Source: Eunapius fragilis
Lineage: Eukaryota; Porifera; Demospongiae; Spongillida; Spongillidae
Assembly: GCA_963681505.1 (NCBI GenBank)
Contig: OY811992.1
Span: 4,318,889-4,382,888, forward strand
DNA: 64,000 bases
Direction: 5' to 3'
The notes beneath the pieces are model-generated. The model did no database searches, had not been told where the DNA came from, and saw only the letters and a list, made by a program, of their open reading frames with translations. This document shows, piece after piece, positions 1 to 59,410 of this stretch. A program made the position numbers and the translations under genes. The stretch's first letter is position 1, and each line of letters begins with the position of its first letter.

Positions 1-1326
1 CCTGGCCAATGGGGCTGCTGTCATGCCACTGGTAGTCATAGTAGCAACAATGGTGGGTGTTGTAGGTGGAGTCATCATCATGGTTATACTGGTCATTGTG
101 GTCTGCACAGCGGTAGGCGTGGCTCATGCAAGGAGGTCTTGCAACAATAGCAGGTATGTTTTTACTGCCAGAAACTGTATAGGATTTGTGTTGCATCCAA
201 GTCTAACTACATTCCACACACTAGCAGATAGGGTCGGTGTTTCTAGACTAGGAAAAAAGTGAACAGTGTCACTTTGTCAACCCCTATTGCCACGTAAGGT
301 TTGAAAGCATTAATTTGCTCTCATAACCCAGTACAATTTCTCATTTAGTCTTTAACCTGCACTGCAATATAAAATGATACTGATCATTAGTATGGGGTAC
401 ACACCTAAGAGCTGGGCTGTTGTTAGAATCAACTTGCATGAGATTGTATACATAGTGCAAACCTCAGCAATTGATAACATTCCAGAGAAGGGCTGCATAC
501 AAATATCTTAGTGGCAAGCAAATTCACATGCAAGCACTTTGTCTTCAGCACTTTCTAATACCAACCAGATCAGTGACATCTTTGATCATATGCAAACAGT
601 TGCCACATACAAAAGATTTTATTAATCGATGATCCTTTTACAGAACTGTCAAATGTATGAAGTGTGGATTTACATGGATAACATATATGTAGATAGTTAT
701 ATGCCGCTACATAACACTACACCAGTACTTGAGGATCAAAAATTTTAGCCCAGAGAACTAAAATGTAGTCTGGATTTGGGGGGGACATTTTTAACAATGC
801 AGTCTGGGACAACTGAAATAGTTCCCAGAAGTGACAGAAATGACTGATCTCCTCCATGCATGACCATACTTTGTCATGTCATTTATTGGCAACACACACA
901 CACACACACACACATGCATGCACACACAAACACACACAAACACACACACATGCATGCACACACAAACACACACACAAACACACACATGCATGCACACACA
1001 ATCACACAAACACACACACACACACACACACACACACACACACACACACACACACACACACACACACAAGTGCCACAGAGGCAGTGCAGGTGTATGAGAC
1101 TATCCAGGAGGTTAACCACACGCTATATCAGAAGAATGAAGAACTACCTCCCAATCATATCTCCAAGGACTATGAGGAGGCTCTCATTGACATGACACTA
1201 AATGATGCATATGGACCACATCAGGGCAATGAAGCACAAGCTTCCCCTCAAATGTCCAAGGGCTGTGACATGACACTGAATGATGCATATGACTATGCAA
1301 GCACACAAGTCACCTCAAAGGACTAG
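1..1326 (+). CDS. IgSF receptor paralog A, 3' part (TM and tail exons)
   Basis: Only the last two exons are in the window. The TM exon (1-153, entered mid-exon) encodes a hydrophobic helix rich in Val, Ile and Gly, followed by a basic stop-transfer AHARRS, and ends AGCAG|GTATGT in phase 2. The tail exon (1071-1326) starts at CACAAG|TGCCACAG and encodes about 85 residues ending TSKD. It contains six tyrosines, including YETI, YEEA and two copies of DMTLNDAY. Copy A has one extra Ile before the first DMTLNDAY relative to the other copies. The upstream signal and Ig exons lie before base 1; their presence is inferred from copies B and C. The tail suggests a phosphotyrosine signalling receptor at the plasma membrane. 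An ATTAAA at about 1348 could be the poly(A) signal. Confidence 0.8.
893..1069. repeat. (CA)n microsatellite at splice acceptor, copy A
   Basis: An interrupted (CA)n tract with CATGCATG interruptions fills the 3' end of the intron between the TM and tail exons and runs straight into the AAG acceptor. No ordinary pyrimidine tract separates it from the exon. Open frames of His-Thr or Cys-Val through it are composition artefacts. Confidence 0.95.
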
Positions 1327-3145
1327 CAGATGTGATGTATAAACAAATTAAAACAAAGCCAGATTACAGAATTTTTTTAGAATTTCAAAGAGACTTTAAT
1401 TTTTTTCTCTCAATATTTTATTGTGTTTGGACAGAGGTACACACACTACACATACAAACAGCTACACATAACATTCATACGCCTGCTGCACGGAGTTAGG
1501 GCATGAGTGAGTGAGGATGGTATGAGTGAGTGAGGATGGTATGAGCATTAGCTCTAATTAAGGAGTGACTGAGCTGACCACAAAGATCACCCAACGCCTT
1601 GGATTTACAGCCATTCCCATGAATGGCCAAGTTGTGAAATGGCCTTGAGAGCCTTTGGACTCCAGGCTCCATGACTCTCTACCCTCCAATGGGATACACT
1701 TCCAGCCCAATTTCACGTTTTGTGTCATTTTCAGAGTGGAATTCAGCTGCTCTTGCAGCAACACCTGAGTACATGCCCACTTCCATCATAATAATAGAAT
1801 TGAGCAGGGATTAACAGTGACATCAACAGCTGCTGCATGAGGTGCCACTGTCCCAATTGGTCACTAAGATATCTGCTGGTCCAGTCCTTGAGCTGTCTTG
1901 ACCCCAGCCGCTACCAACTTCATGATGTGAAGAAGATTAGCTAACTCTACGGAAGGTATTGTGCACAATGCACCACGTATGGTGCTATGCCTCAAGGTGA
2001 CATCACCCCCTCTCTTGCAGGTAACAAAATGATGCCCAGAGGGGTCCAGTGAATCACTTGAACAAAGAGGCAAGCTCCGCAAGCCATCAAGTTTGCATCT
2101 AAATCCACAGAGGAAGACACCATGTAACTAAATACTTGTGGTTCAAAGTGCAAACACATGCTGACTGATGGATCTACAGAGATCCAAGCTGAAGACTATG
2201 TTTTAAAAATATTGTATTTGTTGTTGATTCCTTGCGCATGATTGTGTTTATTTTTTGAAAACCGGGACCGTGTGATTCTCACAATAGGAGGGTTTTGCAG
2301 GGAGTTTTTTTTTTTGTTTGTTTTTTTATCGCCATCGGTGAGTTCAAGTAGATGGATAACTCGCACAAACCTTAGGCCGATGGTAGACTATGCCGTCCAC
2401 TTTTAAAAATAGCAGGATGTAGGGCCATGCTGCGTATTAGGTCTGGGGAAGAGACTAGCGTGCAGTGCAAACTGGTGTGTATTGAGAGCAGGAATGACAG
2501 AGATAAATTTTCACTGGCACAAATGCGTACACACTACGATGATGAAGTTAATCTGCACTGCGTGGTATTTTGGATTACTGTTAAAAATGTGGTACCAATG
2601 TGAAATATCAACACTACTATAAGTAAACGCTTTCATTAACTATAGACCCCTTTCATATGACGTCAAAAATCAATTCATATGAGGTATATTCAATGCTGCC
2701 CGCCATCTTGGTGCTCAAGTTACTATAGAACGGTATGGGCAATTTACAGTTTTTAATTATTATGCCTGTTTTGGGCCTCGTATTATTCTTACCATGGAAT
2801 GATGTCAGTGCCCACTGTAAATAAAAATAAAACCAAACTCATAATCACTTACTGTGAACGTACAGTAAATTAATAACCAAAACCTTTGTTTTGCCCATAC
2901 CATCCTATATCACCAAGATGGCGGACAACAAATAATTTTACTCTCAATGAATTCATTGCTCACCCGATGAAAATGGTCTATAGCAGAAACGTCACGTATA
3001 CAATGTTTACATACATCTGCACTGATTTGCACAGCACTAGATAAACTAGAGGCCTGTTGCAGCCCTGCATGCATTTTTCATCTATCTTAAAGGAGGTACA
3101 CTAGCATAGTGCGTATGCTGCCCGCGCGAACTGATTTTCCCAATC
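1327..3145. other. Downstream flank of copy A (repeated flank I)
   Basis: This flank follows the tail exon and is shared with the flanks after copies B, C, D and partly E, so it is part of the duplicated unit. It contains a minus-strand retroelement relic (1558-2082). The 2640-3000 stretch recurs only after copy D (43450-43850). No gene is seen outside the relic. Confidence 0.7.
1558..2082 (-). pseudogene. Decayed non-LTR retrotransposon C-terminal fragment
   Basis: Two broken minus-strand frames (2082-1864, then 1764-1558). The first contains HHFVTCKRGGDVTLRHSTIR, which parallels HALTCKRGSDVIARHNHLR in the open fragment at 29271-30440. The second contains GWKCIPL, matching GWSCIPL there. 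Order and spacing agree with the post-RT zinc-finger and nuclease-like region of that element. Frames are interrupted, so it is a relic. Paralogous relics sit after every tail exon, so it was probably present before the array duplicated. Confidence 0.6.
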
Positions 3146-4030
3146 AGGAACTACGATTGTAGTTGCTATAATTGACCCGGGTCGTGAAATCATTAAAAAC
3201 GCGACCCGCGTATAACTCGCGTACCGAGAAACGGATAGTGTAGCTCTTTGTTGCTATCGAACCAGAAGGCAAAGACGGTCATTATAATGATTTATTGCAG
3301 TCTTCAAACTGCTTGCTTTAAGAGAACAAAAAAAAACAAAAAATTCGTGTTTTACCTCGTCCCCAGACCAAATCTTCTCCGTCGTCAACATCGTCGTCGT
3401 CGTCTTCTCGGGTGAATACAATTCCGGATAGGAATGTTTTTAAAGAGCGCCAACTATACCAATCGCTTTAGAATCTCCTGGAAATCATATGCATGAATAA
3501 AGCATACAACTGACATACGTAATCATTACGTAAAGCAGAGTGTTAAATTGAAGCATTCCCATGGCGACAAAAGAGAGCTAAACAACGAGACGACGAGTTA
3601 GAATTCTCCCGCGTTCCTTACATTGATCCCAAACAAAAGCGGGCGTCTGCTCGTGACGGTAATTGAAGCGGGGGGGGGGGGGGGGGGGGGGGGGGCACTT
3701 GCCAGTATTAATTAATAATCGATAAAAAAAGAATAGAGGAAACAAGTAAAGAAAAACATTTTCTAACGAGAAAGTTGGTGGGATATAGGAATTGGTGGCA
3801 AAGGTGGTGTAAAAAGGAAGGGAACAAGGTTTTGGGAAAAGAAAAATGAGACAAAAATCCTATATTTAGCATTTCTTTCAGTTCTGTTACAATTACATGT
3901 GCTAAATATAGGATTTTTGTCTCATTTTTCTTTTCCCAAAACCTTGTTCCCTTCCTTTTTACGCCACCTTTGCCTCCAATTCCTATATCCCACAAACTTT
4001 CTCATTCGAGAATGTTTTTCTTTACTTGTT
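3146..4030 (-). mobile_element. Composite foldback module, inverted copy
   Basis: Read on the minus strand, this begins with a long hairpin (4030 to 3741, arms about 130 bases). It continues into a tail homologous to 11830-12300 and 33680-34075, with shared blocks around CCAGGAGATTCTAAAGC and GGGTCGCG. The flanks after copies B and D lack it: there CCAA(T/G)TAATAAC.ATATC runs on directly, giving an empty site. This copy also holds extra sequence and a G26 tract (3670-3695). A short acidic open stretch on the minus strand (about 3425-3340, five Asp in a row, then EDLVWGRG and a GTAAAA donor) corresponds to the acidic ORF of the copy at 12032. Confidence 0.65.
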
Positions 4031-59031: not shown

Positions 59032-59157
59032 CACACACACACACACACACACACACACACACACACACACACACACAAACATGCATGCACACACAAACAC
59101 ACACAAACACACACATGCATGCACACAAATACACACACTTACACACACACACACAAG
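59032..59157. repeat. (CA)n microsatellite, copy E
   Basis: Shortest of the five CA tracts; again ends in CACAAG at the tail exon. Confidence 0.95.
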
Positions 59158-59410
59158 TGCCACAGAGGCAGTGCAGATGTACGAGACTATCCAGGAGGTT
59201 AACCACACGCTATATCAGAAGAATGAAGAGCTACCTCCCAATCATGTCTCCAAAGACTACGAGGAGGCTCTTGACATGACACTGAATGATGCATATCGAC
59301 TACATCAGGGCAATGAAGGACAAGCCTCCCCTCAAATCTCCAAGGGCTGTGACATGACACTGAATGATGCATATGACTATGCAAGCACACAAGTCACCTC
59401 AAAAGACTAG
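59158..59410 (+). pseudogene. Orphan tail exon of copy E
   Basis: A 253-nt open exon with the same tyrosine layout (YETI, YEEA, two DMTLNDAY units, the first followed by RLH). It has lost its TM partner exon. Probably unused, unless joined by trans or long-range splicing. Confidence 0.6.

Follow-up and report, generated by a model that had tools for sequence, protein, structure and literature searches.

Tandem immunoglobulin-type receptor genes on chromosome 22 of the freshwater sponge Eunapius fragilis share their ectodomain module with chromosome 20 units that carry different tails

Results

Organization of the chromosome 22 array

The stretch of 64,000 nucleotides analysed here (the window) corresponds to positions 4318889-4382888 of chromosome 22 (C22) of Eunapius fragilis, a freshwater sponge for which the published genome note reports an assembly of 218.91 Mb that comprises 23 chromosomes, of which chromosome 22 measures 5.5 Mb, and a mitochondrial genome (PMC12616128). 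Window positions 1-59410 hold five members, denoted A to E, of a family of immunoglobulin (Ig)-type receptor genes. They belong to an array spanning approximately 225 kb of a single strand of chromosome 22, in which we find 13 places with a tail exon (4177446-4394601, all on the plus strand, two of them broken) and 11 ectodomain units, 10 of which have a first domain (D1). The repeated unit was found by self-comparison and translated searches, and the chromosome 22 units were detailed across 144 kb around the window, with units G, H and I upstream added. Exon models were built from splice consensus sites and open frames in one haplotype, and the splicing described here is that predicted by these models. 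Runs of N are absent from the window and from the chromosome 22 stretches that were read, so the copies described here are not split by assembly gaps.

A full copy has six coding exons, which encode a signal peptide, D1, D2, D3, a stalk with the transmembrane (TM) segment, and a tail with the stop codon. The signal-peptide exon is 64 or 67 nt long, and its position relative to the rest is constant in the six copies that were scanned. The first four introns, which follow the signal peptide, D1, D2 and D3, are in phase 1, and the TM/tail intron is in phase 2; those between D1 and D2 (49-61 nt) and between D2 and D3 (57-66 nt) are short in the copies measured. When the intron after D3 is retained, the frame closes eight or nine codons beyond the D3 donor in all seven D3-bearing copies within the 144 kb, and for this reason soluble receptor forms produced through the retained intron are possible, if speculative. 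The intron 5' of every tail exon carries a CA repeat that runs up to the acceptor AG (window positions about 950-1070, 15900-16020, 27230-27330, 37060-37180 and 59040-59155), as does that of the chromosome 20 relative described below, and this repeat might influence splicing.

Copies B and C are full genes that remain open throughout as six-exon models, in agreement with an earlier sequence-only reading of the stretch. On the plus strand, as are all features of the five copies, copy B comprises a signal-peptide exon of 64 nt at 12528..12591, which ends in phase 1 with the donor GTAAGC, followed by D1 (an Ig domain; 12843..13184), D2 (Ig-like; 13234..13611), D3, the fold of which is not established (13669..13953), the stalk and TM exon (14876..15092), and the tail exon with its stop (16023..16275). 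The corresponding exons of copy C are located at 21376..21439, 21692..22024, 22074..22454, 22521..22811, 26271..26571, which encodes the longest stalk, and 27334..27586, again with the stop. Copy A had been called partial. Its stalk and TM exon occupies 1..153 of the window, with the true start at -63 outside it, and its tail exon with the stop is at 1071..1326; the first four exons, for the signal peptide and D1-D3, precede the window (-2447 to -1039), and the gene is open over its full length.

The sequence-only reading also listed copies D and E as partial. Copy D retains a signal-peptide exon (34151..34214), D1 (34472..34813), D2 (34863..35243), D3 (35301..35585) and an open tail exon (37184..37436), but its TM exon is gone: sequence equivalent to positions 14821-15214 of copy B (about 390 bp) is absent at a deletion point at 36402..36409, and the tail is out of phase with D3 when the TM exon is missing. 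If expressed, the product of copy D would be only soluble or out of frame after D3. A 21-nt tandem repeat is present at 36185-36464, where the deletion point of copy D lies, and at 14604-14883, just 5' of the TM exon of copy B; it may have helped to delete the TM exon of copy D. From copy E, the signal peptide, D1 and the TM exon are missing, as is the 5' part of D2. What remains is the 3' part of the D2 exon (57339..57677), D3 (57735..58019) and the tail exon with its stop (59158..59410), with a deletion point at 58740..58742 where sequence equivalent to 23512-26904 of copy C, including the TM exon, is absent. No TM exon of the array type was found between copies C and F.

Across the 144 kb around the window, the units are Z, for which only TM and tail exons were read, Y, A, B, C, D, E and F. 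Copies A, B, C and F, together with G, H and I upstream, are open throughout, giving seven open units among the 10 chromosome 22 units with exons read, a count that leaves out the 11th unit at 4169115. The other three are broken, Y by one nonsense codon in D2, and D and E as described above. Remnants consisting of TM and tail exons only are present at 4290114-4291270 and 4240879-4242208 of chromosome 22. The TM and tail proteins of units G and H (stretches L020 and L022) do not differ from each other; in contrast to the remaining copies, they have a glutamate close to the inner end of the TM segment. Taken together, these models confirm that five same-strand paralogues with shared exon order and phases and near-identical tails lie within positions 1-59410.

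Domains of the ectodomain and the array tail

D1 passes the Pfam cut-offs (Ig_3, E 1e-11). D2 alone falls under the Pfam cut-off (Ig_3, E 1.1e-5) but aligns with D1 (hhalign, E 3e-6), and D1 and D2 are thus immunoglobulin superfamily domains on the basis of sequence comparison, D1 clearly so and D2 as an Ig-like domain. The D3 domains of the chromosome 22 copies have no Pfam match and no convincing match to Ig domains in PDB or hhalign comparisons. One of seven D3 relatives matches Ig_3, at a weak E of 0.065, and the relatives keep a tryptophan and a DxGxY-like motif, which is suggestive only. The ectodomain had been described as containing three Ig domains; this description holds for D1 and D2, whereas D3 is at most a candidate Ig domain. 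By sequence, the closest relatives of the ectodomain with solved structures are neurofascin, NCAM2, DCC, FGFR and similar adhesion molecules or receptor kinases.

The array tail, denoted tail I, is 84 residues long and has six tyrosines. These are invariant in all 12 tails compared (11 from chromosome 22 and one from chromosome 20), while 35 of 83 alignment columns vary (P 0.03). One YxxI motif is present in tail I, and there is no YxxM or YxN motif.

Related ectodomains and alternative tails on chromosome 20

A genome-wide ectodomain search, in which 99 candidates were scored and from which unit counts are lower bounds, identified no fewer than 17 additional units of this kind on chromosome 20, several of which carry stops. 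Tail I itself occurs at one place on this chromosome, with 74% identity, and several of the chromosome 20 units, read in the stretches L025, L027, L028 and L029, have different TM and tail exons. Across the two chromosomes, at least five tail types are joined to the same ectodomain module. Tail II is found at five places on chromosome 20 (1421349-1549993, plus strand), on the same strand as the ectodomains, and two neighbouring units in L025 both carry it; a unit in L029 has a TM exon of type II, although the stretch read there contains no tail II. Tails III and IV occur at one place each in the genome, and tail V, read at a single locus, follows a unit in L028. When D2, D3, TM and tail exons are joined in silico, the frame is open for both tail II copies and for tail V, and with tail IV it is open to the end of the locus sequence, in which no stop was seen. 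Moreover, the TM/tail junction is in phase 2 in the joined models for tails I, II, IV and V and, as read directly from the DNA, for tail III.

BLAST comparisons among the five tails give no match for five of the 10 pairs and weak, short matches for the other five, with E values of 0.002 for III-IV (a short IFEDL stretch), 0.011 for II-III, 0.031 for I-IV, 0.079 for II-IV and 3.1 for III-V. Because of the weak matches among them, tails II, III and IV may be distantly related. None of the five tails has a Pfam match, and hence none has a TIR domain or a kinase domain. Tail V is the only one that matches the patterns of both the immunoreceptor tyrosine-based activation motif (ITAM) and the immunoreceptor tyrosine-based inhibitory motif (ITIM), its ITAM-like sequence being YYSL-x8-YSHL. 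On the plus strand of L028, a candidate second unit, on the opposite strand to the first, includes D2, D3, a TM-like open reading frame (ORF) and a possible sixth tail type, with parts at 1-299, about 460-640, 2785-3042 and 5823-6374 of that stretch.

Selection, divergence and exchange between copies

The ratio of nonsynonymous to synonymous divergence (omega) was pooled over pairs of chromosome 22 copies; such pairs are not independent, and the bootstrap limits are consequently rough. Values of 0.27 (0.14-0.52) for D1, 0.54 (0.36-0.84) for D2 and 0.22 (0.09-0.50) for the tail were obtained from eight copies each, and 0.42 (0.20-1.00) for D3 from seven. Within D2, the first 72 columns have an omega of 1.26 (0.69-2.48) compared to 0.27 (0.13-0.50) for the remainder of the domain, and this fast first half is either relaxed or diversifying, which cannot be distinguished at this copy number. 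In the comparison of Ig exons with the tail that the sequence-only reading had proposed, only the first half of D2 is fast. The description in that reading of the ectodomains as varied was overstated, given that the window copies are about 88-95% identical to the first copy in each domain and that omega is mostly low. Synonymous divergence (dS) is about 0.08-0.13 in the exons, leaving aside the signal-peptide exon, which is very short, and the TM exon, which aligns poorly; in introns and flanks it is 0.05-0.13. Such agreement is the pattern of recently duplicated functional genes, and the coding sequence is under constraint overall.

Divergence between the chromosomes differs among parts of the ectodomain. 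The D2 core has a dS of 0.06-0.10 between chromosomes 22 and 20 and of 0.05-0.13 among the chromosome 22 copies, whereas saturation is reached between chromosomes in the first 24 alignment columns of D1 (pooled dS 2.65). For whole domains, dS between chromosomes compared to that within chromosome 22 is 0.40 versus 0.11 for D1 and 0.17 versus 0.13 for D2. In the unit with tail IV, D1 is nearer to the chromosome 22 copies (dS 0.14) than to other chromosome 20 copies (0.33), and the stalk is like that of chromosome 22. The chromosome 20 unit with tail I, on the other hand, has a divergent D1 (dS 1.06 to chromosome 22) and one in-frame stop in D2, and no D3 was found for it. On the basis of these two cases, ectodomain and tail are not strictly co-inherited. 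Gene conversion or ectopic exchange between copies would account for such a mosaic, although single-domain trees are too weak to prove exchange between copies.

More distant relatives are found on chromosome 10, where four places match at 38-42% (about 39%) with the order D1-D2-D3 kept. The stretch read there (L026, 1337000-1346999) contains a 200-base run of N, and further Ig-like matches follow on the same strand, six of them above the I-set cut-off; it is part of a cluster of I-set Ig domains at C10:1262441-1372408. Other dense I-set clusters are located at C7:537142-555958, C3:11719538-11738758 and C8:7598733-7607973.

Neighbouring repeats and transposons

A DNA transposon at 54557..57338 lies beside the truncated copy E and encodes THAP (54557-54796, plus strand), DDE_Tnp_4 (55477-56214, plus strand) and YqaJ (56289-57338, minus strand) domains, a set which we take to resemble that of ISL2EU/IS4EU elements. 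Its end at 57338 abuts the truncated D2 of copy E, which begins at 57339. Retroelement-like fragments with a weak SH3_Tf2-1-type match, below the cut-off, are present within 45822-48855 and are followed by an ORF resembling OTU proteases (Pfam E 4.9e-9). An open frame of 391 codons at 29265-30440 has no Pfam match and is probably a transposon remnant. Just past copy E, at 60058-61300, a 16-nt unit is repeated in a long tandem tract whose GC skew is very strong.

Discussion

The new observation made here is that ectodomain units on chromosome 20 are joined to different TM and tail exons, with a D2 core that is about as similar between the two chromosomes as it is within the array. One ectodomain shared across several tails is a hallmark of paired receptors, and near-identical ectodomains on different TM and tail exons are what we find in this sponge. 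The locus is probably part of a lineage-specific, paired-receptor-like Ig family of single-pass surface receptors that includes a tandem array. The sequence-only reading is thus supported in seeing here a tandem family of Ig-type receptors that has expanded in this lineage and whose tails contain tyrosines. Several results weigh against the paired-receptor-like assignment. Overall, the ectodomains show constraint and not diversification, and tail I has neither the ITAM nor the ITIM consensus (Yxx[LI]-x6-12-Yxx[LI] and [SIVLT]xYxx[ILV], respectively). In addition, the invariance of its tyrosines is not significant for the chromosome 22 tails alone (P 0.22), and shuffles of the five tails match the ITAM pattern 332, 176, 375, 73 and 138 times per 20,000 each, so that, summing over these shuffles, chance alone would yield a single ITAM match in a set of five tails about 5.5% of the time.

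In the mechanism that we envisage, the N-terminal D1-D2-D3 module would face the outside, where it probably binds ligand, and would be followed by the stalk and TM helix, with a separate last exon providing the tail. The general biology of receptors with tyrosine-bearing tails points to phosphorylation by Src-family kinases and binding of SH2 domains, and the genome has 70 SH2 domain matches (82 candidates scored). By this analogy, Src-like kinases probably act on the six tyrosines of tail I, which SH2 proteins would then bind. Because the chromosome 20 relatives place the same module on other TM and tail exons, a single recognition surface seems to feed several outputs, as it does in the paired receptors of vertebrates, and tandem duplication, exchange between copies and the swapping of tail exons at constant intron phase would keep the family changing. 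An immune or allorecognition function, akin to the immune or self-recognition role suggested by the sequence-only reading, is a hypothesis that gains strength only indirectly, from the sharing of one ectodomain by several tails, a layout known from paired immune receptors.

An unlikely but serious alternative is that these are ordinary adhesion or developmental receptors, tandemly duplicated and drifting, with no role in recognition. This idea draws on the identity of the closest solved structures (neurofascin, NCAM2, DCC and FGFR) and on the fact that copies decay freely, as seen in the nonsense codon of Y and the deletions in D and E. Nevertheless, a housekeeping adhesion gene would not usually have its ectodomain joined repeatedly to different tails on a second chromosome, as seen here, and both tail I and D1 are constrained. 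Sponge Ig adhesion molecules and an Ig-domain receptor tyrosine kinase also place Ig domains at the cell surface, as described in PMC11999971, but tails I-V lack a kinase domain. Similarly, sponge Ig-TIR receptors have Ig ectodomains with a proposed role in innate recognition (PMC6208332), whereas tails I-V are without TIR.

It is distinctly unlikely, in our judgement, that the genes are allorecognition determinants like Hydractinia Alr, in which polymorphic ectodomains would bind each other across individuals and fusion or rejection would be signalled by the tails. The Alr1/Alr2 complex, as the Hydractinia genome paper presents it, consists of clustered single-pass Ig genes and pseudogenes in an early-branching animal, as here, and tandem single-pass Ig-type receptors with tyrosine-bearing tails resemble the Alr proteins described there (PMC11067881); ITAM and ITIM motifs have also been reported for Alr (PMC12065747). 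Copy number and pseudogene load in the sponge suggest birth and death, and the elevated omega of the first half of D2 relative to the rest of that domain would fit such a role. Alr ectodomains, however, are described as highly polymorphic and low in overall identity (PMC11067881), a comparison made by description only, whereas the sponge paralogues share about 90% of their ectodomain sequence and evolve mostly under purifying selection. Botryllus fester/FcoR at the fuhc locus likewise form lineage-specific receptor families with tyrosine motifs and paired loci, but their domain make-up, as described, differs from that of the sponge family (PMC12065747). It is highly improbable that the array consists mostly of pseudogenes whose similarity reflects recent duplication or gene conversion because, despite the three broken units among 10, the TM and tail remnants, the two broken tails and the stops in several chromosome 20 units, seven of the 10 chromosome 22 units read are fully open, and D1 and the tail have omega values of about 0.2-0.3, their bootstrap limits staying under 0.55.

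The closest parallels for a paired-receptor-like family are found in vertebrates, and FcR-like genes of Xenopus are reported to combine similar ectodomains with distinct TM regions and separate tail exons (PMC2413239). The likeness to vertebrate paired Ig receptors (XFL of Xenopus, KIR/LILR and CHIR) is one of design, with no homology shown beyond the Ig fold. Moreover, the vertebrate receptors fall into two signalling classes, whereas the sponge family has at least five tail types, of which tail I has no ITIM and only tail V fits both ITAM and ITIM. A literature search on this topic, with most subscription papers outside its reach, returned no sponge family of such design. Candidate allorecognition proteins are reported in PMC12065747 as not being conserved among sponges, cnidarians and ascidians, even though the systems converge on ITAM/ITIM signalling. 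A bolder proposal, which we regard as tentative and on the whole doubtful, is that exchange keeps the module alike across two chromosomes while a fixed phase-2 junction couples it to at least five tails for the recognition of self and non-self or of microbes, and that paired-receptor logic had a separate origin at the base of the animals. A sponge family in which one ectodomain is combined with several swappable tails would provide a concrete gene set for testing how sponges recognize and signal, and it would point to more than one origin of the paired-receptor design.

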